Assembly (NCBI GenBank): GCA_019352035.1
Contig: JABBNZ010000015.1
Coordinates: 1-64,000 of the forward strand
Direction of reading: 5' to 3'
From: Pseudomonadota bacterium
Lineage (GTDB): Bacteria; Pseudomonadota; Gammaproteobacteria; Steroidobacterales; Steroidobacteraceae
Length of the DNA: 64,000 nucleotides
Shown: positions 1,323 through 18,638 of the stretch, piece after piece
How positions within the stretch are numbered: the first letter of the stretch is position 1
Layout of the letters: every line of letters starts with the position of its first letter
The notes under the pieces: model-generated
Told to the model about the DNA's origin: nothing
The model's input: only the letters and a program-made list of their open reading frames with translations
Database searches by the model: none
Made by a program: the position numbers and the translations under genes

Positions 1323-2513
1323 CTACGTGCCGGGCTCGCCCGCCGAGCGCGCATCCTGCGCCCTGCCCTTCCACTTTCCGCCCCGTCCCGCGGCATATTG
1401 CACCGCGGAATGAGCGGTGGCCGCCGCATAGAAAAGCGCCACCGCGGGCAGAAGCAGCGCATAGGCGGCAGAGAGCCGATAGAAGCGGACCATCGGCAGA
1501 TAACATGCGCTCATCAGCAGCCACGCCGCGGCACCCAGGGCGATTGGCGTGGGTGCGCGCGTCAGCACGAGCAGCGGCGGGGCAAGATAGGTCGCGAACA
1601 ACCCGAGGAGCGTCCCGGCAAGCAGCAGGTACGAGTGCCGCAGCTGATTGAAGGCGGTGCGCGAGATCATCGCGCCGATCTCGGCGTACGAGCCATACAC
1701 GCGCAGACTGCGCGTCTGCCGCGCCAGACCCAGCCAGATGCGCCCGCCGCTCGACTTGACCACACGGGCCAGCGCGCAGTCGTCGATGATGCGGCCGCGG
1801 ATCGCGGCCAGGCCGCCGGCGCGCGCGAGCGCCGCCGGGCGCACCAGCATGCAGCCGCCGGCCGCCCCCGCGACTGCGGATCGGGGCGAGGCGATCCAGG
1901 CCGGCGGATAGAGCTTGAGAAAGAAAAACACGAACGCCGGGATCAGGCAGCGCTCCGCGAACGTCACCGTCGAGAGCCGCACCATGAGCGAGACGAGATC
2001 GAGCCGCTCCGCCTCGGCTTTTGCAGCCAGCGCCGCGACTTCACCAGGCGCGTACTCGATGTCGGCATCGGTGAAGAGCAGGAAATCGGGATCGCCTGGC
2101 GCTGCGGCCGCGACGCCCTGTGACATGGCCCAGAGCTTGCCCGTCCAGCCGGGCGCGGGCGGCGCTGCGGTCAAGATGGTCAAGCGCTGCGTCGCGGCGC
2201 AGTCCTCAGCCGCCCGCCTCGCTGCCTCCGCGGTACCATCCGTGCTGCCGTCGTCGACGACGATCACCTGGATGGGAGGCTCGAGTGTCTGGCGCAGAAG
2301 CGAGCTCACGGCCATGCCGATGCCTTCGGCCTCGTTGCGTGCAGGCACGACTGCGATGACGCGCCTGGCAGCCTGACTGACGGCGGCGCAGGACCGTGGC
2401 CCCAGCGCGCGTGAGACCCGCCAGAACCCGCCGCGTGCCAGCAGCAGATAGACCCAGATGGCAAGCGGCACCCCTGCGGCGGCGTGAGCAAAGTTCACGG
2501 CATCAACCGACAC
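1323..2513 (-). CDS. hpnB: HpnB, hopanoid-associated glycosyltransferase (GT2)
   Basis: Family 2 glycosyltransferase of the type found in hopanoid loci; its precise acceptor is not established. In 396 residues it shows an N-terminal membrane helix, PARNE (57-61), VVDDGSTDGT (85-94), the metal-binding FTDADIEY (147-154), IIDD (242-245) and two or three C-terminal membrane segments. This layout and the APGWTGKLWA stretch fit HpnB. The start is GTG at 2513. The hopanoid genes hpnA to hpnH lie 1.6 kb away on the same strand, separated from it by an oppositely oriented barrel gene. A generic GT2 is the fallback call. Confidence 0.85.
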   Translation of the reverse strand: MSVDAVNFAHAAAGVPLAIWVYLLLARGGFWRVSRALGPRSCAAVSQAARRVIAVVPARNEAEGIGMAVSSLLRQTLEPPIQVIVVDDGSTDGTAEAARRAAEDCAATQRLTILTAAPPAPGWTGKLWAMSQGVAAAAPGDPDFLLFTDADIEYAPGEVAALAAKAEAERLDLVSLMVRLSTVTFAERCLIPAFVFFFLKLYPPAWIASPRSAVAGAAGGCMLVRPAALARAGGLAAIRGRIIDDCALARVVKSSGGRIWLGLARQTRSLRVYGSYAEIGAMISRTAFNQLRHSYLLLAGTLLGLFATYLAPPLLVLTRAPTPIALGAAAWLLMSACYLPMVRFYRLSAAYALLLPAVALFYAAATAHSAVQYAAGRGGKWKGRAQDARSAGEPGT

Positions 2514-2699
2514 CTGGGAACCGGCCCTTCACAGGCAAGCGGGCGGACCCGCAACGCCGATATAATCGGCGGATTCGTTTCGCCATGCTGGCTTCCTTCG
2601 CTTCGACAACTTGCCGCGGAATGCCGCGGACCTGGAGGCCGCGGCCCAAACGCCGCGGAGAGCGTACTGATTGCCTCGAACGACCCGAGCGGACCGCCG

Positions 2700-4046
2700 T
2701 TGCCCAAGCATAGCCCAAGGCGCCTCACCCAGGCAGCGCTCGGGCTGATCGCCGCCGCTCCCTTCTGCCTCGCCGCGCGCGCCGCCCTGGCGCAGGGCAC
2801 GGCTGCGCTGAGCGCGCAGAAGCCGCCGATCACCGGCCCCATCCCGCTGAAGAAGCAGCCGAAGCCGGCGAAACCTCATCACAAGGTCAACTGGCTGAAC
2901 CCCACCGCCTGGCCGGTGCTGCCGGTCCCGCTCACCGCGGTGAATCCCAACAGCGGCACCACCCTCGGCGTCATCCCGACCCGGCTGGTGACCAATTCCC
3001 GCAGCGAGATCACGGACATCATCGCGCCGGACATCATGCACAACCCGTACTTCGGCTGGGGGGCGCATGCGCGCATACTCGCCTTCCCGTCGCAGGACAC
3101 GCAGTGGTCGATCGTCGCCGGCGGAGAGCAGCACATCGAGAGCACCTTCGATGCGCTCTATCAGACGGGCCTGCTGCGCGACTCCCCCTTCTCTCTTTCG
3201 GTGGAAGGCCTCTACGACCGCAGCGGCACGCCGCGCTTCTTCGGCATCGGCAACAACTCGTACAAGATCAATCAGACGGTATACACGGACCAACAGCTCG
3301 GCATCACGACCACCCTCGGCTGGAACATCACGCACGCCTGGCAGCTCGCGTATACCTTCGCCGCGCGCAAGGTCAAGGTCCTCGGCACGACCCTCCCCGG
3401 CATTCCCCCGATCACCTCGCGGTTCAAGGGCACATTCGGCATCGGCACGACGCACGAGCTGCTCAACCGCGTCATGCTCATCTACGACACGCGCAACGAC
3501 GTCACGATTCCCACCCGCGGCATGGAAGTGGCTTTCTACGGCGGCGTGGCGAGCCGCAATGTCGCATTGGACGATTCGCTGTTCACCGAGGCCGGCGGCG
3601 ACGGGCGGTTCTACTGGTCTCCATTCCACTCCCTCGTGGTGGCAACCCACATCGCCCTCAGATACGAGCCGACGGCTCACCACGTGCCGTTCTGGGCGCT
3701 GAGCAGCCTCGGCGGCGATGAGAGCACCATCGGCGGCTCACAGACGCTTCGGGGCTACGGTACCGGGCGCTTCTACGACCGCAATTCCTTCTCCTTCAAC
3801 CTCGAGCTGCGCGAAAACGTGCTCTCGATCAATGCGCTCTCGACGCACATCATTCTGCAGATCGCGCCGTTTTTCGACACCGGCCGCGTGTTCCACGACA
3901 CCGGGGCGTTTCCGATCCGGCACCTGCACAACGTCCTCGGAGTGGGCTTTCGCGGAATCGCCCCGCCGTCGGTCGTGGGCTATGTCGACATCGGGAGGGG
4001 CAGCGAGGGCATGGCGGTCTTCACCGGCATAAATTATCCTTTTTAG
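2700..4046 (+). CDS. Outer-membrane beta-barrel protein, Omp85/surface-antigen family
   Basis: Predicted outer-membrane barrel of about 448 residues. A signal peptide (RRLTQAALGLIAAAPFCLAA followed by an ALA-Q cleavage site) leads into a barrel with the Omp85 C-terminal pattern: GSQTLRGYGTGRFYDRNS (the conserved RGY/RGF loop motif), FNLELRENV, and a terminal Phe. No POTRA domains precede the barrel, so it resembles the short 'surface antigen (D15-like)' proteins, not BamA itself. I chose TTG at 2700 because it places the signal peptide correctly. An in-frame ATG at 2484 would add 72 residues of non-signal character and overlap the 5' end of hpnB. It sits inside the hopanoid locus on the other strand; whether it moves hopanoids or phospholipids is unknown. 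Confidence 0.75.
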   Translation: MPKHSPRRLTQAALGLIAAAPFCLAARAALAQGTAALSAQKPPITGPIPLKKQPKPAKPHHKVNWLNPTAWPVLPVPLTAVNPNSGTTLGVIPTRLVTNSRSEITDIIAPDIMHNPYFGWGAHARILAFPSQDTQWSIVAGGEQHIESTFDALYQTGLLRDSPFSLSVEGLYDRSGTPRFFGIGNNSYKINQTVYTDQQLGITTTLGWNITHAWQLAYTFAARKVKVLGTTLPGIPPITSRFKGTFGIGTTHELLNRVMLIYDTRNDVTIPTRGMEVAFYGGVASRNVALDDSLFTEAGGDGRFYWSPFHSLVVATHIALRYEPTAHHVPFWALSSLGGDESTIGGSQTLRGYGTGRFYDRNSFSFNLELRENVLSINALSTHIILQIAPFFDTGRVFHDTGAFPIRHLHNVLGVGFRGIAPPSVVGYVDIGRGSEGMAVFTGINYPF

Positions 4047-4166: not shown

Positions 4167-5255
4167 TCATTCACCTGCTTTCGGACGGCGCTGGTTGGTC
4201 AGGTAGCCGTTGGCTTCGAACCAGTGGAGCGCGTCGGCGAACGCTTCTGGCGGCGGGCGCCAGCGATAGCCGAGCTCGCGGGCCGCTTTCGCGCTGGAGA
4301 AGAACATGCGCTTGCGCGCCATGCGCACGCCCTCGACGGTGACGCGGGTCGGCCGGCCGGTAAGCCTGGCGTAGAGCTCCGATGCATATGCCACGGGAAG
4401 CACCGCGCCGTGGGGCAGCCGGATGCGCGGCGGGCTGCGCCCGACGCGCTCCGCGATCAGGGTCAGGATCTGGCGCAGAGTCATGTCCTCGCCGCCCAGA
4501 ATGTAGCGCTCGCCCACGCGCCCGTGGTGGAACGCCAGCAGGTGGCCCGCCGCGACATCATCCACGTGCACGATGTTGAGTCCCGTGTCGAGGTAAGCGG
4601 GCGTGCGGCCGCGGGCGGCGTCGAGCACGATCTGGCCGGTCGGCGTGGGTTTGACGTCCCCCGGGCCGATGGGTGTCGAGGGATTGACGATCACGACCGG
4701 AGCACCGGCGGCGGCCGCCGCGCGCGCGCGCTCCTCCGCCAGGAACTTCGACCGCTTGTAGTGGCCGATCATCTCGCCCAAGCCCACGGGGGTATCTTCA
4801 GTGCCCGGGCGCCCGTCCGCCGGCAGCCCGACCGTTGCGACGCTGCTCGTGTACACGATGCGCCGCACTCCCGCGCCGCGCGCCGCATCGAGGAGGTGGC
4901 CCGTTCCTTCGACGTTGGCGCGGTAGAGCTCCTCTGGACGCGGCGCCCAGAGCCGGTAATCGGCCGCCACGTGAAAGACCGCCCCGCATCCCTCGAGCGC
5001 TCCCCGCAGCGAGGCGGCATCCGTCAGGTCTCCTACGACCTGCTCGACCGGGAGGGAGGCGACATTGCGGCGGTCGGACCCGCGGCGCACCAGCGCACGG
5101 ACCTGCCAGCCCTGCGCGAGGAGCGCGCGCACGACTGCGGCACCGACGAATCCCGTCGCGCCCGTCACCAATGCTTTGCTCGGCTCATCCTGAGCCTCGC
5201 CTCTTCGGGGCCGCGGCTCCGCCGCGTCAAAAATCGCTCCCGGCGATTTTTTCAT
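4167..5255 (-). CDS. hpnA: HpnA, hopanoid-associated NAD-dependent sugar epimerase
   Basis: Extended short-chain dehydrogenase linked to hopanoid loci; the exact substrate is undefined. The 362-residue protein has the Rossmann motif TGATGFVG (31-38), YTSS near 135 and YKRSK (166-170) as the catalytic Tyr-Lys pair. ATG at 5255 overlaps the hpnG stop (ATGA), supporting coupled translation. This start gives a 26-residue leader before the usual N-terminus, partly encoded by the palindromic repeat at 5231-5249. The TTG at the ALVTGATG codons would give the family-typical start, so the leader may be an insertion. Confidence 0.88.
   Translation of the reverse strand: MKKSPGAIFDAAEPRPRRGEAQDEPSKALVTGATGFVGAAVVRALLAQGWQVRALVRRGSDRRNVASLPVEQVVGDLTDAASLRGALEGCGAVFHVAADYRLWAPRPEELYRANVEGTGHLLDAARGAGVRRIVYTSSVATVGLPADGRPGTEDTPVGLGEMIGHYKRSKFLAEERARAAAAAGAPVVIVNPSTPIGPGDVKPTPTGQIVLDAARGRTPAYLDTGLNIVHVDDVAAGHLLAFHHGRVGERYILGGEDMTLRQILTLIAERVGRSPPRIRLPHGAVLPVAYASELYARLTGRPTRVTVEGVRMARKRMFFSSAKAARELGYRWRPPPEAFADALHWFEANGYLTNQRRPKAGE
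5231..5249. repeat. 19-bp palindromic repeat, copy 2, inside the hpnA 5' coding end
   Basis: Identical to 4090-4108. Here the arms extend to 9 bp (AAAAATCGC/GCGATTTTT) and the hairpin is flanked by A and T runs on both strands, like a bidirectional intrinsic terminator. It covers hpnA codons 3-9, directly after the hpnG stop, so it could attenuate transcription or affect initiation at hpnA. Confidence 0.75.
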
Positions 5256-5998
5256 GAGCTCTCCGCGGCGGGGCCGCCGACGAGCGCGCGGCGTGAGGCC
5301 GATTCCGGACGCGCCACGGCCGAGAGCACCCGGCTTGCGATGCGGTACCGCGCCGAGAGCCGCACCAGCGCTCCGACATCTCCCGGAGCGCGCAGCAGAC
5401 CTGCGAGCAGTCCTCCGATGCGAAGCTGGCCGCCGCCGCTCGCAGCGATCACGGCGGGGGGCAGCTCATCGGAGGCGGTGTCGACGATGACCCGTACGGC
5501 GATGAACGGCAGCCCGGCCTGGCTTGCGACCCGCGCCACCGCGGCGCTCTCCATGTCGACCGCGGCAGCGCGCGAAATGCGCCAGGCGTCCGCTTTGACA
5601 GCGCGCCCGAGCGGCCGCGGGCTCGTGAGGAGCTTGCCCCCGACGGCGATGCAGGAAGCGGGCAGCGCGGCGCGCAGCCGCTGCCGCCACTGCCTCGAGG
5701 TTGCCGACACCGCCGATTCCAACCCGATGCCGTCCCATGCCGCGACTTCCTCCGGCAGCACCACGGCGCCGCAGATCAGTGTCGGGTCGAGGCCACCGGC
5801 CATTCCGAAGCTCGCGAGCGCGGTGGTGCCGGCAAGCACGAGTCTGCGCGCGGCGGCGGCGGCGGCGTTCTCCCCGATGCCGCTCACCGCCAGCAGAGCG
5901 CCGTCGGCGAGCTGACGCAAGCCCGCCCCGCGAGGAGCCGCCGGCCCGAGAGTGCGCGCCTCGGCCGCAAGCGCCGAGACGATGCCGATGGACTTCAA
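5252..5998 (-). CDS. hpnG: HpnG, hopanoid-associated nucleosidase/phosphorylase
   Basis: Nucleoside phosphorylase-family protein. HpnG is thought to remove adenine from adenosylhopane, giving a ribosyl or phosphoribosyl intermediate for bacteriohopanetetrol. The 248-residue protein begins MKSIGIVSALAAEA, has SGIGE near 39-43, VDMES (147-151) as the ribose-binding segment and VDTASDE (172-178) with the catalytic Asp. I chose TTG at 5998 because it overlaps the shc stop (TTGA) and gives the family N-terminus. A longer open frame upstream only reads antisense-like sequence of shc in another frame. It sits between shc and hpnA in one operon. Confidence 0.88.
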   Translation of the reverse strand: MKSIGIVSALAAEARTLGPAAPRGAGLRQLADGALLAVSGIGENAAAAAARRLVLAGTTALASFGMAGGLDPTLICGAVVLPEEVAAWDGIGLESAVSATSRQWRQRLRAALPASCIAVGGKLLTSPRPLGRAVKADAWRISRAAAVDMESAAVARVASQAGLPFIAVRVIVDTASDELPPAVIAASGGGQLRIGGLLAGLLRAPGDVGALVRLSARYRIASRVLSAVARPESASRRALVGGPAAESS

Positions 5999-7983
5999 GG
6001 GAGGTGAGGCTCGCCGCGGCGTCGGTAGGCGGCAAGCGCCCACAGCGGAAAGAAGGCGCAGTAGCCATGGTACTTGAGATAAAACACCCGCGGGAACCCG
6101 GGCGCGGTGAAGCTCGGATGCGACCACAGTCCGCCGCTCTCCTGCGTGCGCAGCAGGTATTCGATGCCGCGACGCACCGCCACCGAGCCGCCCTCTCCGG
6201 CCGAGATGAGCGCCAGCACCGCCCACGCCGTCTGATACGGCGTGCTGGCGAAACTGCGCTCGGGATACGTCTCTAGATCGTAGCTGTCGTTGCTCTCGCC
6301 CCAGCCGCCGTCCGCGTTCTGACACGAGAAAACCCAGTCAACGGCACGGCGCACGGCCGGATCGCCGGCGGGGATTCCCGCAAGCTCGAACGCCATGAGC
6401 ACCGACCACGTGCCGTAGACGAAGTTGGTGCCCCACCGGCCGAACCAGGAGCCGTCGGCCTCCTGCTCCCGCCGCAGATACGCGATGGCGCGCTCGAGGG
6501 TGGCGCGGTCCTGGGGCCGGCGCGCCCGCGAGAGCACCGCCACGACCCGCGCGGTCACATCGCTGGTCGGTGGATCGAGCAGGGCGCCGTGATCCGCGAA
6601 CGGGATGTAGTTGAGGTTGTAGTGGGTGTTGTCGGCATCGAAAGCCGCGAATCCCCCGTTCTCGCTCTGCATGCCGACCAGCCACTCGAGCGCTCGCTCG
6701 ATCGAGGCGGCGTAGCGCTCCGGAAGGTGCGCCTGGTGCATGGCCCAGCCGACGACGGCCGTGTCGTCGAGATCGGGATAATGCGCGTTGCCGTACTGAA
6801 AGGCCCAGCCGCCGCTCGGCACCCGCGGTCTGCTGGCGCGCCAGTCGCCGACCTCCTCCAGCAACTGGCGCGGGAGGAGCCAGTCGAGTGCGCGCACCGA
6901 GGCGCGGACCGCTTCGGTCCCGCCCGCCTCCTGCAGGGCGAGCGCCGCGAGGGCCGTATCCCACACCGGGGAGACGCAGGGCTGGCAATACGCGCGGTCC
7001 TGCCCCACCACCAGCAGCTTCTCGATCGCGCGCTTGGCGGTGACGCGGCGCGGATCATCCGCCGGATAGCCGAGCAGCACCATCATCTCGAGTGCGTTCA
7101 CCATGGCGGGGAAAATCGCGCCCAAGCCATCCTCTCCGTTCAGGCGCTCGAGCACCCAGGCTTCGGCCCGCCGCATCGCGGCCCTGCGCATCGCGGCCGG
7201 GATCAGCGGATCGATGCAGCGCGCCACGCGATCCACGGCGAAGAAGATCCGTGCGAGGAGCTTTCCCGTGCGCGGCAGTTGGAAGTAATGACGCTCCTCT
7301 TCCGGCGGGTTCGTGAAAAGCTCCCGCACATGGATGTTGCGCGGGTTGCGCGCCACCGGCTTCACGGTGCAGAGGACGAACAGCGGCACCATGACCGTGC
7401 GCGACCAGTAGGAGACCTTGTCGATGTGGAATGGAAACCACTTCGGCATCAACATGATCTCGACGGGGATGTAGGGCACCGCCCGCCAGGGAATCTCGCC
7501 GAAGAGCGCGAGCGCGATGCGCGTGAACACATTGGCGTGCGCGGCGCCGCCGCGGGCGAGGATGGCCTCGCGGGCGCGCCTCATGTGGGGCGCATCCGGG
7601 TCATCGCCCGCCAGCTTCAAGGCATAGTAGGCCTTGACGGTGCAGCTCAGATTGAGCTCCCCGCCGAAGTAGAGCGGCCAGCCGCCGTGCGCGGCCTGCT
7701 TCTCGCGCAGGTACACCGCGAGCTTGCGCTCGAGCTCCGGCTCGATCTCATCCAGATAATGCATCATCAGGATGTATTCGGCCGGAATCGTGCAATCGGC
7801 CTCGAGCTCGAACACCCAGTGTCCGTCGCTCCTCTGCAGTCCGATCAGGGCATCGCGCGCCGAGGCGATCGCCTGACCGAGGCGCTCGAGCGGCCGCGCG
7901 GTGCGCGCCCGGCCGGCCTCCGCTGCGGCGACAGGTCCGGGATCCTCGAGCGGGGCGGCCCCCGTCTGCATGCCCGGGCTCAC
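5995..7983 (-). CDS. shc: Squalene-hopene cyclase
   Basis: Monotopic membrane enzyme that cyclises squalene to hop-22(29)-ene, the committed hopanoid step. The 662-residue length is typical. The catalytic DLDDTA lies at 404-409, with D406 as the proton donor by homology. QW repeats include QEADGSWFGRWG (507-518), QNADGGWGE (555-563) and QSENGGFAAF (439-448). The C-terminus ends in the usual YHGYCAFFPLWAL. GTG at 7983 overlaps the sqs stop (GTGA); an ATG four codons on is an alternative. It is also called hpnF. Confidence 0.97.
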   Translation of the reverse strand: MSPGMQTGAAPLEDPGPVAAAEAGRARTARPLERLGQAIASARDALIGLQRSDGHWVFELEADCTIPAEYILMMHYLDEIEPELERKLAVYLREKQAAHGGWPLYFGGELNLSCTVKAYYALKLAGDDPDAPHMRRAREAILARGGAAHANVFTRIALALFGEIPWRAVPYIPVEIMLMPKWFPFHIDKVSYWSRTVMVPLFVLCTVKPVARNPRNIHVRELFTNPPEEERHYFQLPRTGKLLARIFFAVDRVARCIDPLIPAAMRRAAMRRAEAWVLERLNGEDGLGAIFPAMVNALEMMVLLGYPADDPRRVTAKRAIEKLLVVGQDRAYCQPCVSPVWDTALAALALQEAGGTEAVRASVRALDWLLPRQLLEEVGDWRASRPRVPSGGWAFQYGNAHYPDLDDTAVVGWAMHQAHLPERYAASIERALEWLVGMQSENGGFAAFDADNTHYNLNYIPFADHGALLDPPTSDVTARVVAVLSRARRPQDRATLERAIAYLRREQEADGSWFGRWGTNFVYGTWSVLMAFELAGIPAGDPAVRRAVDWVFSCQNADGGWGESNDSYDLETYPERSFASTPYQTAWAVLALISAGEGGSVAVRRGIEYLLRTQESGGLWSHPSFTAPGFPRVFYLKYHGYCAFFPLWALAAYRRRGEPHLP

Positions 7984-9111: not shown

Positions 9112-10017
9112 TCAGTTGCGCCTGGCCAGCAGCCAGTCCGTGACGGCTCGAAGCGCCTCCGCGCGACTGCCGAACGGCGCCAGGGATTGCATCGCCTCGC
9201 CGTGCAGGCGGCGCACCTGCTCCTGGGAGGCTGCCACCCCGAGGAGGGCCGGGTACGTGGACTTGCCCCGCTCCTGGTCGGCGCCCGCCGCCTTGCCGAG
9301 CGTCGCCGTATCCGAGAGCACATCGAGCAGGTCGTCCTGGATCTGGAACGCGAGCCCGATCGGGGTCGCGAACCCGGTGAGCGCCTGCACGAGTTGCGGC
9401 TCGAGCGCCGGCACGCACGCCGCACCCATCATGACACTCGCCCGGATCAGCGCGCCGGTCTTCAGCGAATGCATCTTCTCGACCTGGGCGATCGCGAGCT
9501 TGCGGCCCTCCGCCTCGAGGTCGAGCGCCTGGCCGCCCGCCATGCCGAGGCTCCCGATGGCGCGTGCCAGAAGCTCCACCAGACGCACCCTGATGCCCGG
9601 ATCGGCGGGCAACGCCGGGTCGCGGGCGAGCAGCTCGAATGCGAGCGACTGCAGCGCATCGCCGACCAGCAGCGCGGTTGCTTCATCGTAAGCTTTGTGG
9701 CACGTCGGGCGACCCCGACGCAGGTCGTCATCGTCCATCGACGGCAGATCATCGTGCACCAGCGAATAGACGTGCACCAGCTCGAGCGCGCAGGCGGCGG
9801 CCTCTACCTGCTCCTCGGTGAGCCCGACCGCGCGCGCGGTCGCCATGAGCAGGATCGGTCGGACCCGCTTGCCTCCGGCGAGCACGCTGTAGCGCATTGC
9901 GGCGTGCAGCCGCTCCGGAGTCTGGTCGGCGCGCGCAAGGCGCGCCGCCAGCGCTCCTTCCATACGCATTCGCCAGGCCTCGAGCTGGCCGGCGAAAGAA
10001 TCAGGCACGACTGGCAC
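9112..10017 (-). CDS. ispA: Farnesyl diphosphate synthase (IspA-type polyprenyl synthetase)
   Basis: Makes FPP from DMAPP/GPP and IPP, feeding squalene synthase. The 301-residue protein contains GGKRVRP (48-54), the first Asp-rich motif DDLPSMDDDD (89-98) and the second DDLLD (228-232). Small residues near the first motif fit an FPP-length product. GTG at 10017 has AGGAGG nine bases upstream and starts inside the 3' end of hpnH (17-nt overlap). A second GTG at 10008 is possible. The gene order hpnH-ispA-sqs-shc follows the metabolic flow. Confidence 0.93.
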   Translation of the reverse strand: MPVVPDSFAGQLEAWRMRMEGALAARLARADQTPERLHAAMRYSVLAGGKRVRPILLMATARAVGLTEEQVEAAACALELVHVYSLVHDDLPSMDDDDLRRGRPTCHKAYDEATALLVGDALQSLAFELLARDPALPADPGIRVRLVELLARAIGSLGMAGGQALDLEAEGRKLAIAQVEKMHSLKTGALIRASVMMGAACVPALEPQLVQALTGFATPIGLAFQIQDDLLDVLSDTATLGKAAGADQERGKSTYPALLGVAASQEQVRRLHGEAMQSLAPFGSRAEALRAVTDWLLARRN

Positions 10018-11149
10018 GCCGGCTGTCCTCCTGGCGGCTCGCGCGCTTGATGTCAGCGACCGGGATCGTCGCCACCGGCGGCGGCGGCTCATCGTCGTAG
10101 AGGAAGGGCAGCTCCGGCGCCATCGGACCTTCGACCCGCGGACCGCGCAGCGCCACCTTGAGCGCCTTCAGCGGGTGGGCGAACGTGTCATCGACGGCGG
10201 TGCCCTCGAACCCGCAATGCGCCATGCAATTGTCGCACTTGCGGTTGCGGCCTACGCCATAGCGCTCCCAATCGGTCTCTTCCATCAGGGCGCGGAAGGA
10301 GCTGGCATGCCCCTCATCCGTGAGCAGGTAGCACGGCCGCTGCCAGCCGAAGATGTTGTAGGTCGGATTGCTCCACGGCGTGCACTGATAGGTCTGGTTA
10401 CCGGCCAGGAAGTCGAGGAAGAGCGAGGACTGGTTGAAGGGCCAGCGGGTACCGCGCTGGCGCCCGCGCTTGAAGATCTCGCGAAAGAGCTGCTTGCTGG
10501 CGCCGCGCCCGAGGAATACGTCCTGGCGGGGCGCGTGCTGATAGCTGTAGCCGGGGGAGACGGTGATGCCCTCGACCCCGAGGGACTGCGCCATGTCGAA
10601 GAAATCGGCCACTTCGTCCGGCTTCTCGTTCGCGAAGAGCGTGCAGTTCACCGTAACGCGAAAGCCCCTGGAGCGCGCGAGCTTGATGGCCGCGACCGCC
10701 TTGTCGAACACCCCTTCCATGCACACCGACTCGTCGTGCCGCTCGCGGTTGCCGTCGAGGTGCACGGAGAAGGTGAGATAGGGCGAAGGCTGGTACTCAT
10801 CGATGTGCTTCGCGAGCAGGATGGCGTTGGTGCAGAGGTAGACGAAGCGCTTGCGCGCGACGATCCCGGCGACGATCTGCGGCATCTCCTTGTGGATGAG
10901 CGGCTCACCGCCGGGAATCGAGACCATGGGCGCCCCGCACTCATCGACGGCACGCAGCGCATCCTCCAGGGAGACGCGCTTGTGCAGTATCTCCTTCGGA
11001 TAATCGATCTTGCCGCAGCCGGCGCAGGCGAGGTTGCATTGGAACAGAGGCTCGAGCATGAGCACCAGCGGATAGCGCTTGTCCCCGCTCAGTTTCCTGC
11101 CGAGGATGTAGCGTGCTACCCGGTACTTTTGAATCAGTGGAATACCCAA
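10001..11149 (-). CDS. hpnH: HpnH, radical SAM adenosylhopane synthase
   Basis: Adds a 5'-deoxyadenosyl unit to diploptene to give adenosylhopane. The 382-residue protein begins MGIPLIQKYRVARYILGRKL as HpnH proteins do. The cluster Cys residues are C38, C42 and C45 (CX3CX2C), followed by GGEP (80-83). A C-terminal CDNCMAHCGFEG segment is typical of the family. The start is TTG at 11149, supported by AAGGAG six bases upstream. It heads the leftward hopanoid operon unless idi, 27 nt upstream, is co-transcribed. Confidence 0.95.
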   Translation of the reverse strand: MGIPLIQKYRVARYILGRKLSGDKRYPLVLMLEPLFQCNLACAGCGKIDYPKEILHKRVSLEDALRAVDECGAPMVSIPGGEPLIHKEMPQIVAGIVARKRFVYLCTNAILLAKHIDEYQPSPYLTFSVHLDGNRERHDESVCMEGVFDKAVAAIKLARSRGFRVTVNCTLFANEKPDEVADFFDMAQSLGVEGITVSPGYSYQHAPRQDVFLGRGASKQLFREIFKRGRQRGTRWPFNQSSLFLDFLAGNQTYQCTPWSNPTYNIFGWQRPCYLLTDEGHASSFRALMEETDWERYGVGRNRKCDNCMAHCGFEGTAVDDTFAHPLKALKVALRGPRVEGPMAPELPFLYDDEPPPPVATIPVADIKRASRQEDSRRASRA

Positions 11150-11905: not shown

Positions 11906-13087
11906 ATGATAACCGGCTCCACGGTCGCTGTAACTGCCCAGGCAGTAATGATCTCGCTCGGCACCGTGCTGGCCGCGGCCGCGCTCGCCTATGCGCTCAT
12001 CGCCTGGGTGGCCGTGCTGCTTTTGCGCAACAGTCACGCCAGGCGTGGACGCGGCCGCGTCGCGGCACCGCGACCGCTGCCGGTGACGATCCTCAAGCCT
12101 CTGTGCGGCGCGGAGCCAGGGCTTGACCATTCTCTGCGGTCCTTTTGCGAGCAGAGCTACCCCGCCGGCATGCAGATCGTCTTCGGCGTCCAGCACCCGT
12201 CCGATCCCGCCCTGGCGGCGCTCGAGAAACTGAAGCACGACTATCCCGGGCTCGATCTCGCCATCGTCATCGATCCGACCCGGCATGGCGCGAGCGCGAA
12301 AGTCAGCAACCTCATCAACATGATGCGTGCCGCCCGACATGACTGGCTGGTGCTGGCCGACAGCGACGTGAGCGTGCCGCCCGGGTATCTGTCAGCGGTG
12401 GCCGCGCCCCTCGCCGACCCGCGGGTCGGCATCGTCACCTGCCCCTACCGCGGTGTGCCCCGGCCCGGGCTCTGGTCGCTCCTCGGGGCGTTGTTCATCA
12501 ACGACTGGTTCATCCCCTCGGTCCGCGTGGCGGCGCTCTTCGGCTCCCGAGCCTTCGCCTTCGGCGCCACGATCGCTTTGCGACGCGGCACGCTCGAGGC
12601 CATCGGCGGCTTTCCCGCGATTGCAGACCAGCTCGCGGACGATTACCGGCTGGGTGAGCTGACGCGTCGACGGGGATTGCGCACGGTATTGTCGGACGTT
12701 GTCGTGGACACCTCGGTTGATGAGCGGTCGTTGAAGCAGCTCGTGCAGCACGGGCTGAGGTGGCTGCGCACCATCCGGGTCGTGCGTCCGGGCGGGTACG
12801 CCTGTTCCGGGATCACTTTCGCCCTGCCGGTGGCAGCGCTCGGTTGCGCCGTGGCCGGCGGAACCCCCCTCACGCTCTCTCTTCTGGCAGCAACGATCGT
12901 GTTGCGCTTGATGTTACATTCGGCCGTGCAGCCCCCTGCCCGGTCCTGGTCTAGAATCTGGGCCATCCCGCTCGCCGACGCACTCGGCTTTACGCTCTGG
13001 TGCGGCGCTTTCGTCACACGCGAGGTGCAGTGGCGGCAGGGTCGCTACCGAGTCGCGCGCGACGGCTCGGTTCAGCCGATTTACTGA
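11906..13087 (+). CDS. hpnI: HpnI, hopanoid-associated glycosyltransferase (ceramide-glucosyltransferase-like)
   Basis: GT21-like membrane glycosyltransferase. HpnI is proposed to add N-acetylglucosamine to bacteriohopanetetrol on the way to the cyclitol ether. The 393-residue protein has an N-terminal membrane helix (12-40), LKPLCGAEPGL near 63-73, DSDVSVP (152-158), ADDYRLG (244-250) and HGLRWLRT (282-289), the D, D and (Q/R)xxRW-like motifs of the family. C-terminal membrane helices follow. It is first in the rightward hpnIJKL group. Confidence 0.92.
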   Translation: MITGSTVAVTAQAVMISLGTVLAAAALAYALIAWVAVLLLRNSHARRGRGRVAAPRPLPVTILKPLCGAEPGLDHSLRSFCEQSYPAGMQIVFGVQHPSDPALAALEKLKHDYPGLDLAIVIDPTRHGASAKVSNLINMMRAARHDWLVLADSDVSVPPGYLSAVAAPLADPRVGIVTCPYRGVPRPGLWSLLGALFINDWFIPSVRVAALFGSRAFAFGATIALRRGTLEAIGGFPAIADQLADDYRLGELTRRRGLRTVLSDVVVDTSVDERSLKQLVQHGLRWLRTIRVVRPGGYACSGITFALPVAALGCAVAGGTPLTLSLLAATIVLRLMLHSAVQPPARSWSRIWAIPLADALGFTLWCGAFVTREVQWRQGRYRVARDGSVQPIY

Positions 13088-13097
13088 GGACGAAATC

Positions 13098-14522
13098 ATG
13101 ATGAGAACGCTCTTCCTGCACCCTCCCTCATTCGACGGATTCGATGGGGGCGCCGGCGCGCGCTACCAGGCGAAGCGCGAGATCCGCTCCTTCTGGTATC
13201 CCACCTGGCTGGCGCAGCCCGCGGCCCTCGTGCCGGGCAGCCGGCTGCTCGATGCGCCCGCGGACGGCACGCCGATGTCGGAAGTGCTGCCGCTCGCGAA
13301 GCAGTACGACCTGGTCATCATGCATACCAGCTCGCCGTCCTTCCCGACGGACGCGAAAGTCGCGGAGCTGCTCAAGGAGGAGAACCCGCGCCTCATGGTG
13401 GGCATGGTCGGCGCCAAGGTCGCGGTCGACCCTGCCGGCTCGCTCAGCGCCTCGCCCGCCATCGACTTCGTGGCACGCGAGGAGTTCGACTACACCTGCA
13501 AGGAGGTCGCGGAGGGGCGCGAGCTCGCAACCATTCCCGGGCTCTCCTTCCGCCGCCCCGACGGCACGATCGAGCACAACCCGACGCGGCCGATGATCGA
13601 GGCCATGGACGAGCTCCCCTGGGTCACGCCCGTCTACCAGCGCGATCTGACCATCGAGAATTACTTCATCGGCTATCTGCAGCATCCGTACGTCTCCTTC
13701 TACACCGGACGCGGCTGCCGCTCCAAGTGCACCTTCTGCCTCTGGCCGCAGACCGTGGGCGGCCACCGTTACCGCGTGCGCAGCCCCGAGAGCGTCGTCG
13801 CGGAAGTACGCTGGGTGAAGGAAAACATGCCGCAGGTGAAGGAGATCTTCTTCGACGACGACACCTTCACCGATTTTCGCCCGCGGGCGGAGGAGATCGC
13901 CCGCGGCCTCGGCAAGCTCGGCGTCACCTGGTCCTGCAACGCCAAGGCCAACGTGCCTTACGACACGCTGAAGGTCATGCGCGACAACGGGCTGCGGCTG
14001 CTGCTCGTCGGCTACGAGTCGGGGAACGATCAGATCCTGCACAACATCAGAAAGGGTTTGCGCACCGACATCGCTCGCCGCTTCACGAGCGACTGCCGCA
14101 AGCTCGGCATCATGATCCACGGCACGTTCATTCTGGGACTGCCCGGGGAGACGGCCGAGACGATTCGCGAGACCATCCAGTTCGCGGTCGACATCAACCC
14201 GCACACCATCCAGGTCTCTCTCGCAGCGCCCTACCCCGGCACGCAGCTCTACCAGGAGGCCGTCGACAACGGCTGGCTCACCGCTTACGACAATCTGAAT
14301 CTGGTGAACGACCGCGGCGTGCAGCTCTCGCCCATCAGCTATCCGCACCTGCCGGCGAAGGAGATCTACCACGCGGTGGAGACCTTCTATAAGAAGTTCT
14401 ACTTCCGGCCGCGCAAGATCGCCGAGCTGACAGGGGAGATGCTGCGCAGCTGGGAGATGACCAAGCGGCGGCTGCGCGAAGGCGTGGAGTTCTTCCGCTT
14501 CCTGCACGCGCACGAGGCCTGA
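13098..14522 (+). CDS. hpnJ: HpnJ, B12-type radical SAM hopanoid enzyme
   Basis: Radical SAM protein proposed to rearrange the glycosylated side chain to the cyclitol ether. The 474-residue protein has an N-terminal cobalamin-binding-like domain (about 1-160) and the [4Fe-4S] motif GRGCRSKCTFC with C207, C211 and C214, then ETAETIRETI in the SAM barrel. It starts 11 nt after hpnI. ATG ATG at 13098 gives two adjacent starts. Confidence 0.94.
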   Translation: MMRTLFLHPPSFDGFDGGAGARYQAKREIRSFWYPTWLAQPAALVPGSRLLDAPADGTPMSEVLPLAKQYDLVIMHTSSPSFPTDAKVAELLKEENPRLMVGMVGAKVAVDPAGSLSASPAIDFVAREEFDYTCKEVAEGRELATIPGLSFRRPDGTIEHNPTRPMIEAMDELPWVTPVYQRDLTIENYFIGYLQHPYVSFYTGRGCRSKCTFCLWPQTVGGHRYRVRSPESVVAEVRWVKENMPQVKEIFFDDDTFTDFRPRAEEIARGLGKLGVTWSCNAKANVPYDTLKVMRDNGLRLLLVGYESGNDQILHNIRKGLRTDIARRFTSDCRKLGIMIHGTFILGLPGETAETIRETIQFAVDINPHTIQVSLAAPYPGTQLYQEAVDNGWLTAYDNLNLVNDRGVQLSPISYPHLPAKEIYHAVETFYKKFYFRPRKIAELTGEMLRSWEMTKRRLREGVEFFRFLHAHEA

Positions 14523-14543: not shown

Positions 14544-15422
14544 TTGAAGCTCCTCATCGTCACCGCGGACGATTTCGGTCTGCACCCGGCGGTCAACGGC
14601 GCGGTGGAGCGCGCGGCACGCGAGGGCGTCCTGACCGCCGCCAGCCTGATGGTCGGCGCCCCGGCGGCCGCGGATGCGGTGCGCCGCGCCCGCGATCTGC
14701 CAGGCCTCGCCGTGGGTCTGCACCTCGTGCTCGCCGACGGGTGCTCGGTCCTGCCTCCCTCCAGAATCCCGGCCCTGGTCGATGCCCAGGGCCGCTTCGG
14801 CAACAACATGGTGCGCGACGGCGTCCGCTTCTTCGCACTGCCGGCCGTGCGTCGCCAGCTCGAGGCGGAAATTCGCGCGCAGTTCCAGGCGTTCGCCGAC
14901 ACGGGCCTGCTGCTCGACCACGTGAACGCCCACAAGCACTTTCACCTTCATCCGACGCTCCTCGAGATGCTGGTGCGGATCGGGGGCGAGTTCGGGATAT
15001 CCGCCGTCAGGCTGCCGCGCGAGCCTGCATGGGCGGCGCGCCGCGCGGGCGGTGCCATTGCGGGTTCGACGGTCGCCGGGCTTCTCTCGCCGTGGCTCGC
15101 CATCATGCGCCGTCGGCTGCGGGCGGCTCGCATCGCGCACAACGATCATGTGTTCGGCATGTCAGGCAGCGGCGCGATGGATGAGGCGCGGCTGCTCGAG
15201 ATCCTCGGGAAGCTGCCCGAGGGCGTCACGGAAATCTATCTGCATCCGGGCGTCGAGTCCGGCGCCGCCATCGCGGCGAGCATGAGTGGCTACCGCCACG
15301 CGGACGAGCTCGCCGCGCTCGTGAGTCCGAGAGTCCGCGCCGCGATCGGCGCCTGCGGCGCCGCGACCGGAGGATTCCGGCAGATCTCACCGCGATCCCG
15401 GGAAGAGCGGCACGCTGCATGA
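14544..15422 (+). CDS. hpnK: HpnK, hopanoid-associated YdjC-like deacetylase
   Basis: Carbohydrate deacetylase fold. HpnK is thought to deacetylate the GlcNAc-hopanoid made by HpnI. The 292-residue protein shows TADDFGLH (7-14), GLHL (58-61) and HVNAHKHFHLHP (126-137), which supply the metal-binding Asp and His residues. The start is TTG at 14544, 21 nt after hpnJ. The stop overlaps the hpnL ATG (ATGA). Confidence 0.93.
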   Translation: MKLLIVTADDFGLHPAVNGAVERAAREGVLTAASLMVGAPAAADAVRRARDLPGLAVGLHLVLADGCSVLPPSRIPALVDAQGRFGNNMVRDGVRFFALPAVRRQLEAEIRAQFQAFADTGLLLDHVNAHKHFHLHPTLLEMLVRIGGEFGISAVRLPREPAWAARRAGGAIAGSTVAGLLSPWLAIMRRRLRAARIAHNDHVFGMSGSGAMDEARLLEILGKLPEGVTEIYLHPGVESGAAIAASMSGYRHADELAALVSPRVRAAIGACGAATGGFRQISPRSREERHAA

Positions 15423-16408
15423 GGCTCGCCGTCCGCATCGCCCTGGCGGCAGGGCTTGCGCTGCTCATCGCGCTGATCATGCACGAGGGCAGCGCCATCC
15501 TGATCCCGCTGGCCCGTGCGGGACGGGTGCTTCTCTGGCTGGTGCCGCTGCATGCGCTGCCAATCCTGCTCGACTCTCTCGGCTGGCGCGCGCTCCTCGC
15601 CCGCGCGAAGGAGACCCGGGTCGCCACCCTCTTCTGGATCGCCTCCATTCGCGAAGCCATCAACCGGCTGCTGCCGGCCGCGAACATCGGCGGGGAGATC
15701 GTCGGCATCCGCCTCCTGACGGAGACCGGGGTGGACGGCGTGACTGCCGCCGCCAGCGTCACGACCGAGGTGGTGCTCACCGTCTTCAGCCAGTACCTCT
15801 TCGTCGCACTGGGGGTGGCGTGTCTGCTGAAGCTCACGCACACGGTACAATTGGCCGACGACGTGCTCATGGGTCTCGGCGCGAGTCTGCCGGTGATCGT
15901 GCTGCTCGCGGTGCTAGTACGTTACGGCTCGATTTTCGAGCGCATGGAGCGATTCGCGGTCCGGGTTCTGGGCGAGAAGAAGCTCGGCTTTCTCGCCGGC
16001 CAGTCGGCGAACCTCGATGCCGCCGTCCGTGAGCTCTTCGCGGACCGGCCGCGCCTGCTCACCACGATGGCGTGGCAGCTGACGGCGATGGTGTCCGGGT
16101 CGCTCGAGACCTGGCTCGCGCTGCGCTGGCTCGGGCACCCGGTGCCTTTCGGGGCGGCGGTCGCGCTCGAGAGCCTGACGATGACCGTGCGCAACTTCGT
16201 CTTCCTGGTGCCGGCGGGGCTCGGCGTGCAGGAGGTGAGCCTGGTCGGTTTCGGGGCTCTGCTCGGCGTCAACGGCGATCTCGCCCTGGCGCTGTCGCTG
16301 GTCAAGCGCATGCGGGAGATCCTCTTCGGAGTGCCCGCGCTGGTGTCGTGGTATTGGGTGGAAGGACGGAGAGAGTTACAACATGTCCGTGGTTCCGGCA
16401 AATATTGA
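15419..16408 (+). CDS. hpnL: HpnL, hopanoid-associated membrane protein (UPF0104/LPG-synthase-like)
   Basis: Polytopic membrane protein of 329 residues with about seven or eight hydrophobic segments and the family stretches NIGGEIVGIRLL (about 85-96) and VPAGLGVQEV. It fits the hopanoid-associated HpnL model; a transport or flippase role is inference. It is coupled to hpnK by a 4-nt overlap, and its last 26 nt overlap the next gene. Confidence 0.88.
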   Translation: MRLAVRIALAAGLALLIALIMHEGSAILIPLARAGRVLLWLVPLHALPILLDSLGWRALLARAKETRVATLFWIASIREAINRLLPAANIGGEIVGIRLLTETGVDGVTAAASVTTEVVLTVFSQYLFVALGVACLLKLTHTVQLADDVLMGLGASLPVIVLLAVLVRYGSIFERMERFAVRVLGEKKLGFLAGQSANLDAAVRELFADRPRLLTTMAWQLTAMVSGSLETWLALRWLGHPVPFGAAVALESLTMTVRNFVFLVPAGLGVQEVSLVGFGALLGVNGDLALALSLVKRMREILFGVPALVSWYWVEGRRELQHVRGSGKY

Positions 16409-17255
16409 GTCGGAGATCCTGTCGATCGGGTCTGCCGAGCATCGGCGGCTCCTCGGCCAGTTCTTTCTCGACACGCACGTCGAGTACGTGCCCGAGCAGA
16501 TGCAGTGGCCGGCGCTCGCGGAAGAGGAACTGACGCGCCTGCGCAGCCTCCCGTTCTGGCAGGAAGCGGTGTCGACCGAGAACGTCACCTCCAACACGGT
16601 GGCCGCGGCCGCGGCGCTCGAGGCCGACCCCCTGGTGCGCAAGGCGATCGAGCTGCAGGGCTTCGAGGAGATGCGCCATGCGCGGCTCCTCGTCGCGCTC
16701 ACCTCTCACTACCGCATCCCCATCGAGTCGCCGCCGCGATTCACACCGCGCTCGCTCGAGAGCGACTTCCTATTCGCCGGCTTCGGCGAGTGCTTCGACT
16801 CCTTCTTCGCCTTCGGGCTCTTCGCGCTAGCCCGCGAGTCCGGGTTCTTCCCGCCGGCGCTGGTGAAGGTGTTCGAGCCGGTGATGCAGGAGGAGGCGCG
16901 TCACATCCTCTTCTTCGTCAACTGGGTGAAGTACCGGCGGTCCCAGCTTCCCGGGTGGCGCCGTCCGGCGTTTCGCCTGCGCTGCGCCTGGATCATCCTC
17001 AAGCAGGTGGCGTCGCGGGTGAAGACGGCGCGCAGCATGGGCCAGCCGCAGCCGGCGGGCGCAGGCTCCAGCGAGAATTTCACGCTGACTGCCCATCAGG
17101 ACCTCGGGGCGCAGGTCACTCTCCACCGGCTGCTCGAGCTGTGTCTCATCGAGAATGAGCGGCGAATGGCGGAGTATGACGCGCGCCTCGGACGGCCCCG
17201 CCTGGTCCCGGGCATCGCCCGCGTGCTCTTCCGGTTCGTTCCCTCGGGCATCTGA
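16383..17255 (+). CDS. Ferritin-like diiron protein of the hopanoid cluster
   Basis: Not assigned to a named hopanoid family. The 290-residue protein has two E-x-x-H pairs typical of diiron four-helix bundles: FEEMRH (E96, H99) and MQEEARH (E171, H174). Candidate bridging or terminal Glu residues are E66 and E136. No heme or flavin motif is seen. It overlaps hpnL by 26 nt, so it is the last gene of hpnIJKL and probably translated with it. An oxygenase or desaturase acting on the hopanoid side chain or rings is an inference from position and fold; a plain ferritin-like stress protein is the alternative. Start ATG at 16383. Confidence 0.7.
   Translation: MSVVPANIESEILSIGSAEHRRLLGQFFLDTHVEYVPEQMQWPALAEEELTRLRSLPFWQEAVSTENVTSNTVAAAAALEADPLVRKAIELQGFEEMRHARLLVALTSHYRIPIESPPRFTPRSLESDFLFAGFGECFDSFFAFGLFALARESGFFPPALVKVFEPVMQEEARHILFFVNWVKYRRSQLPGWRRPAFRLRCAWIILKQVASRVKTARSMGQPQPAGAGSSENFTLTAHQDLGAQVTLHRLLELCLIENERRMAEYDARLGRPRLVPGIARVLFRFVPSGI

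Positions 17256-17324: not shown

Positions 17325-18638
<1,314 letters not shown>

Follow-up and report, generated by a model that had tools for sequence, protein, structure and literature searches.

A ferritin-like, putative diiron protein family tied to hpnH: a candidate for hopanoid tailoring encoded at the end of an hpnI-J-K-L operon

The window (the whole stretch of 64,000 nucleotides that was analysed, from contig JABBNZ010000015.1 of a Steroidobacteraceae bacterium) contains an hpnI-J-K-L operon, the last gene of which encodes a ferritin-like protein with a full predicted set of diiron ligands. The family to which it belongs is real, conserved and uncharacterised and, at the level of genomes, is strongly tied to C35 hopanoids; its function is likely at the level of class. 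From the ligands, the predicted fold, the position in the operon and the association with hpnH, it is quite probable that the protein is a diiron oxidase that tailors hopanoids. The gene is a good candidate for a hopanoid-modifying step whose gene still lacks assignment. Hopanoids are widely used as molecular fossils and are the bacterial analogues of sterols.

The gene and its neighbourhood

The genes of the hopanoid island, with their NCBIfam scores and cut-offs in bits, are as follows.

1323..2513, minus strand: hpnB (TIGR03469, 484.1 bits, cut-off 379.25)
4167..5255, minus strand: hpnA (TIGR03466, 492.3 bits, cut-off 367.65)
5252..6325, minus strand: hpnG-like phosphorylase (TIGR03468, 146.7 bits, under the cut-off of 187.1)
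5995..7983, minus strand: squalene-hopene cyclase (TIGR01507, 848.1 bits, cut-off 431.1)
10001..11149, minus strand: hpnH, adenosyl-hopene transferase (TIGR03470, 536.6 bits, cut-off 225.05; coordinates of the longest frame)
11906..13087, plus strand: hpnI, glycosyltransferase (TIGR03472, 437.2 bits, cut-off 310)
13098..14522, plus strand: hpnJ, radical SAM (TIGR03471, 820 bits, cut-off 577.6)
14544..15422, plus strand: hpnK (TIGR03473, 406.6 bits, cut-off 232.6)
15419..16408, plus strand: hpnL (TIGR03476, 298 bits, cut-off 195.65; 26-nt overlap with the diiron gene)
16383..17255, plus strand: ferritin-like diiron protein gene (290 aa, ATG start), last gene of the hpnI-J-K-L operon

The minus strand of the island carries hpnB, hpnA, the hpnG-like gene (the start of which is probably placed too far upstream), the squalene-hopene cyclase gene, a squalene-synthase-like gene, farnesyl diphosphate synthase, hpnH and idi, and the plus strand carries hpnI, hpnJ, hpnK, hpnL and then the diiron gene. 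A sequence-only reading had placed an unnamed diiron protein in a hopanoid cluster, its gene overlapping hpnL by 26 nt. The position and the setting are both borne out, as the frame opens with ATG ahead of the HpnL end at 16408, and HpnI, HpnJ, HpnK, HpnL and HpnH all score over their NCBIfam cut-offs. HpnL lies immediately upstream and overlaps into the diiron gene in all 20 of the loci L001-L020, that is, the window's own copy and 19 congeners. The third-position G+C of the diiron gene is 0.89, in line with the 0.82-0.91 of its neighbours. The convergent gene on the other side (17325-18632) is presumably PurA.

Scanning for promoters and terminators gave no useful signal, and clustering of neighbours, an analysis marred by spurious long ORFs in the high-GC DNA, yielded no partner gene for the family. 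Two other features of the window may be recorded here. Within the island, a 384-aa frame at 2529-3683 on the minus strand has no match in NCBIfam (E ≤ 1e-20) or Pfam (E ≤ 1e-10). At 1-408, a frame that we take to be PlsY-like runs off the start of the window with a G+C content of about 41%, as against about 62-73% in the next 3.5 kb, and the contig end there may be chimeric or contaminant.

Conserved ligands and predicted fold

The family alignment has 163 rows, corresponding to 159 members once repeats of one gene are collapsed. The predicted metal ligands of the window protein, all on the plus strand, are listed with the modelled helices on which they lie and the number of members in which they are kept.

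16578..16580, plus strand: predicted ligand E66, helix 59-79, kept in 158 of 159 members (the exception is the incomplete copy L021)
16668..16679, plus strand: predicted ligands E96-x-x-H99, helix 83-109, kept in 159 of 159
16788..16790, plus strand: predicted ligand E136, helix 125-153, kept in 159 of 159
16893..16904, plus strand: predicted ligands E171-x-x-H174, helix 158-188, kept in 159 of 159

E95, E96, H99, E136, E170, E171 and H174 are invariant throughout the 163 rows, as is E66 except in L021. The two E-x-x-H pairs pointed out earlier are present as E96-M-R-H99 and E171-A-R-H174. The motif is weak by itself, because 763 of 20000 shuffles of the window protein also give two such pairs 50-100 residues apart, and its weight comes from the conservation. 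The AlphaFold2 model of the protein (mean pLDDT 85.5, pTM 0.84) has four successive long helices that bear E66, E96/H99, E136 and E171/H174 in this order, which agrees with the earlier description of the protein as helical bundle-like. With conserved E / E-x-x-H / E / E-x-x-H ligands and four ligand-bearing helices in the predicted structure, the protein would belong to the ferritin-like diiron-carboxylate superfamily.

The distant matches of its homologues also place it in the ferritin-like superfamily, within which it is claimed by no curated family. The window protein matches Pfam only below the gathering cut-offs (AurF 15.7 bits against 29.6, Ferritin_2 12.2 against 24.7), rubrerythrin (PF02915) is not among its Pfam matches at E ≤ 10, and it has no NCBIfam match. 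An assignment as a plain AurF or rubrerythrin was discarded on these scores; the window protein has a full predicted diiron ligand set and falls under every curated cut-off. Among 61 homologues searched against Pfam at E ≤ 1, AurF was matched by 36 (best 2e-4) and Rubrerythrin by 31 (best 1.1e-6). Seven of the 61 also matched a magnesium-protoporphyrin cyclase model (best E 0.0013). Neither the sterol desaturase / fatty acid hydroxylase family nor acyl-ACP desaturase is among the nine Pfam families that these 61 members matched.

The nearest solved folds found by Foldseek are ribonucleotide reductase R2 and the R2-like ligand-binding oxidase R2lox (all 50 of the matches listed). The values are loose (TM 0.36-0.55, best E 1.3e-3 with none ≤ 0.001, rmsd 6-13 Angstrom and identity 8-15% among the matches listed), and the likeness therefore appears to be one of general fold and not of close kinship.

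Clades and operon arrangements

Clade types were first given by the best-scoring query, and the FastTree phylogeny of the 163 rows agrees with them. The window-type clade (support 0.99) comprises 21 different genes, all from the genus of the window; the A clade (support 0.92) has 120 members after collapsing, and the B clade (support 1.0) has 18. B was seen only together with A: every one of the 18 genomes that have B has both, at a distance of about 1 kb in 17 of them and of about 14 kb in G198. In several MAG loci an A-B pair immediately precedes hpnL, and in two loci the A and B diiron domains are fused in one reading frame (L113, 9926-11671; L053, 8845-10614, on the contig of KSS8, which is also L114 and G404).

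The position of the gene around the hpn genes varies. The order is hpnI-J-K-L-diiron in the window genus and in Nevskia MAGs, hpnI-J-K-diiron-hpnL in Sphingomonas formosensis and others, and hpnI-J-diiron-K-L in L085; A-B-hpnL tandems also occur, and in Cupriavidus and G198 the diiron gene lies some kb from hpnH. Among sphingomonads, the gene stands between hpnK and hpnL in S. formosensis and G282 and after hpnK in G816. Fourteen sphingomonads have hpnH and lack the gene, and ten of these were inspected; hpnK adjoins hpnL in six (L151-L155, L161), and the other four have no hpnI-L within the stretch. The sphingomonad clusters thus point to gain or loss of the gene at a single site, and it acts as an optional module of hpn operons that otherwise resemble one another.

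A search for relatives gave a match in 27 of 60 genomes, namely the window's own and 26 of 36 congeners (several of the matches being partial), and in none of 23 genomes from other families of the same order. Some congeners depart from the window type. In L022-L025 and L063-L066 the diiron gene is of the A clade despite the genus, and hpnL is divergent (28-31% identity to that of the window). The order, wherever it can be made out, is hpnK-diiron-hpnL, as in L022-L024; L025 stops within the diiron gene, with hpnL adjoining. The operon of these congeners looks as if it had been replaced from outside. In congener G022 (L067, 9514-9897) only both ends of the diiron gene are left, with matches to hpnI, J, K and L alongside, and the gap reflects either a deletion or an assembly collapse.

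Distribution and association with hpnH

In a sample of 398 Pseudomonadota genomes, the window's own included, the diiron gene was found in 14 and hpnH in 49, and all 14 carriers have hpnH. The chance of finding hpnH in all 13 carriers other than the own genome is about 2e-13 if the genomes are taken as independent, and 1e-6 to 4e-6 if counted over seven families, the number of families being inferred from codes. The diiron gene is absent from 35 of the 49 hpnH-bearing genomes in this sample.

A scan of named contigs gave at least 427 candidate stretches encoding relatives, of which the best 80 were analysed (31 of them shorter than 20 kb). The genomes of 50 of these 80 loci were searched; the remainder are 29 loci of the Burkholderia group, together with L068, a repeat of G067. 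From this best 80 of at least 427, hpnH was found in 47 of the 50 carriers. The three without an hpnH match are MAGs. In L085 and L102 the diiron gene adjoins further hpn genes; in L139, labelled Myxococcales, it adjoins none. hpnJ was found in 40 of the same 50 carriers, in 39 of them over the cut-off, and Dongia mobilis (G741) is one of those in which it was not found; the cyclitol-ether branch is therefore seemingly not required. From these results, the diiron gene is truly tied to hpnH, that is, to the extended C35 hopanoids.

The tie is less evident at the level of the locus. A gene of the hpnH/I/J/K/L set lies nearby in 26 of the 80 named loci (best 80 of at least 427) and in 15 of the 49 full 20-kb stretches; none of the 32 loci from Burkholderia, Paraburkholderia or Trinickia has one, as against 26 of 48 elsewhere. 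Strict co-occurrence with hpnIJKL, which the sequence-only reading had named as support, is thus not borne out, either by these loci or by the 40 of 50 genomes with hpnJ. The related concern that homologues might lie mostly outside hopanoid loci is justified when loci are counted (26 of 80, best 80 of at least 427) and is not when genomes are counted (hpnH in 47 of 50).

Within families, the gene occurs in 191 of 347 genomes and 61 of 102 genera of the Acetobacteraceae. In the Sphingomonadaceae it occurs in 3 of 17 hpnH-positive and 0 of 14 hpnH-negative genomes, a difference that alone is not significant (p 0.23). It was found in none of the 295 genomes of the family of G094, with the same query that matched in Acetobacteraceae and Sphingomonadaceae; to judge from its size and its hpnH content, this family is probably that of Bradyrhizobium, in the Hyphomicrobiales, and it is taken to include Afipia.

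Viral contigs gave eight pattern matches and no relative of the family. In a plasmid collection 13 Burkholderiaceae records were matched, and three that were inspected have no gene annotation at the match. Among the 35 hpnH-bearing genomes that lack the diiron gene, 25 were tested for the AMO family, and two matched. One of these, G161, had been chosen on this account as a methanotroph control and was dropped, since its AmoA-like protein seems to us to be of the kind found in beta-type ammonia oxidisers; for this reason the finding of the diiron gene in 0 of 125 genomes of its family is uninformative on methanotroph pentols. G246, which we take to be an alphaproteobacterial methanotroph, had no diiron match in the scan of 398 genomes.

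Hopanoid chemistry of the carriers and the proposed reaction

No prior description of the family was found in the accessible parts of the hopanoid literature (PMC12583986, PMC8560942, PMC5462960, PMC6460317 and PMC5438186 among them), subscription papers aside. In its available parts, the 2025 survey PMC12583986 gives the percentages of unsaturated and of pentol/hexol hopanoids for 54 species (Table 3), calls the genes for both unknown, and reports that enzymes for pentols and hexols were sought near hpn clusters with no candidate resulting. With an hpnH-tied family present in Acetobacteraceae, in Burkholderia and in one strain of that survey, and located in or apart from hpn clusters, the questions of the genes for unsaturation and for pentols and hexols, as framed in those parts, become testable.

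The sequence-only reading had proposed an undescribed hopanoid-tailoring oxygenase or desaturase. The proposal holds at the class level, on the ferritin-like assignment, the full predicted ligand set and the co-occurrence with hpnH; the strict link to hpnIJKL does not. The protein would be a ferritin-like enzyme, soluble or peripheral to the membrane, in which E66, E96, H99, E136, E171 and H174 bind two irons. It would activate O2 and oxidise extended C35, hpnH-dependent hopanoids, presumably as an accessory tailoring step. As to the reaction, we lean slightly, and short of an even chance, toward a desaturation of the rings in which two hydrogens are taken away (delta-6, perhaps delta-11) over hydroxylation. 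In a narrower form, which must be considered rather unlikely, the family would be the missing ring desaturase, with the A clade making the delta-6 bond, the B clade the delta-11 bond, and the window clade representing a third, genus-specific form. If this were true, a polycyclic triterpenoid would be desaturated by a ferritin-like diiron enzyme, as sterols are by membrane His-box desaturases. The carriers whose chemistry is known all fall in the A clade, which is separate from the clade of the window protein, and any function of the window protein would be one transferred from theirs.

The alternative that the enzyme hydroxylates the side chain, placing an OH on C-31 of bacteriohopanetetrol (and on C-30 with the B paralogue) to give pentols and hexols, is possible but somewhat doubtful. 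S. formosensis CC-Nfb-2, the very strain lipid-profiled in PMC12583986, carries the gene in the operon, and according to that paper 1% of its hopanoids are unsaturated while pentol and hexol together make up 23%. That it is barely unsaturated despite its operon copy, and yet has this much pentol and hexol, argues against a desaturase. Burkholderia cenocepacia, by putative mass-spectral annotation in the available text of PMC8560942, is reported to make hop-6-ene and pentol cyclitol ethers, although the carriers L030 and L107 are other strains than those of that study; both carriers with reported chemistry thus make pentol. The presence of the gene in Acetobacteraceae and some sphingomonads, and its absence from all 295 genomes of the probably-Hyphomicrobiales family, also match the distribution given in parts of PMC12583986, where pentols and hexols are restricted to Rhodospirillales and Sphingomonadales and the Hyphomicrobiales are without them, though Table 3 has one at 1%. 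Against hydroxylation, pentol is made by six of the eight hopanoid-making sphingomonads of Table 3, as against 3 of 17 hpnH-bearing sphingomonad genomes with the gene (Fisher p 0.01; S. formosensis is common to both sets, whose other entries are unmatched by name). Pentol being commoner than the gene in this group, sphingomonads would have to possess a further pentol enzyme if the diiron protein were the hydroxylase. Unsaturation and the gene, for their part, are about equally rare among sphingomonads, which favours a desaturase: S. formosensis is the sole non-zero entry for it among the same eight.

Other lineages bear on both reactions. In Table 3, the unsaturated share of the hopanoids is 49-82% in seven acetic acid bacteria; these bacteria show both unsaturation and pentol/hexol features, and their link to the gene is only at the family level (191 of 347 Acetobacteraceae). 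Hypericibacter terrae is given 4% unsaturated and 5% pentol plus hexol hopanoids (PMC12583986, in part), and the carrier Dongia mobilis is of the same family. The corresponding values in that paper are 37% and 26% for Skermanella aerolata, 43% and 0 for Afipia broomeae, 0 and 44% for Nitrospirillum amazonense, 0 and 90% for Sphingomonas mali, and 1% and 77% for Enhydrobacter aerosaccus. Afipia broomeae has 43% unsaturated hopanoids in the same table and, with no carrier among the 295 genomes of the family taken as its own, either another delta-6 enzyme or an unsampled copy is therefore indicated. Nostoc and Azotobacter are named as pentol makers in the text available of PMC8560942.

Two further explanations are both improbable. 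The protein might store iron or, like a rubrerythrin, scavenge peroxide to shield the radical-SAM enzymes HpnH and HpnJ, without lipid catalysis in either case, and it is true that radical-SAM genes often adjoin the diiron gene and that 31 of the 61 members have distant rubrerythrin matches (best 1.1e-6). Such a role is hard to reconcile with the absence of the gene from 35 of the 49 hpnH-bearing genomes, and neither rubrerythrin nor ferritin is among the 50 best fold matches listed, which belong to R2 and R2lox. Still less credible is action on the cyclitol-ether head group formed by HpnI, HpnK and HpnJ, for example as an AurF-like N-oxygenase. Many loci have the diiron gene in the midst of hpnI, J, K and L, which would suit it, and more members match AurF than any other Pfam family (36 of 61 at E ≤ 1, best 2e-4). 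The window protein, however, scores under the AurF gathering cut-off (15.7 bits, cut-off 29.6), 10 of the 50 carriers gave no hpnJ match (some of them incomplete MAGs, and one the hpnH-positive isolate Dongia mobilis, G741), and an N-oxidised cyclitol ether was not found in the accessible parts of the hopanoid literature.

Comparison with known systems

The family resembles R2lox and ribonucleotide reductase R2 in its ferritin-like helical fold (Foldseek TM 0.36-0.55 among the matches listed). In R2lox the ligand pattern is likewise E / ExxH / E / ExxH, and the hallmarks of this oxidase are a Tyr-Val crosslink and a Mn/Fe site with a bound fatty acid. The diiron family differs from both in sequence, with 8-15% identity among the matches listed and neither of them matched in a search of PDB sequences, and in its hopanoid gene context. 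AurF (PF11583, p-aminobenzoate N-oxygenase) is a ferritin-like diiron oxygenase. It is distantly matched by 36 of 61 members, whereas the window protein is under its gathering cut-off and the family is tied to hopanoid genes. The likeness to MiaE-like and AcsF-like diiron hydroxylases is weak (MiaE-like 5ux1, E 0.53; magnesium-protoporphyrin cyclase model in 7 of 61, best E 0.0013), and the window protein itself has no such match.

Hopanoid desaturase candidates have been proposed from the sterol-desaturase / fatty-acid-hydroxylase superfamily, according to the available parts of PMC12583986 and PMC6460317; the M. psychrotolerans candidate is described in the latter as an integral membrane protein with His motifs. 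These candidates have been proposed, in those parts, for the same reaction, hopanoid unsaturation. In contrast, the diiron family has no Pfam match of that kind and lies in the hpn operon in many lineages.
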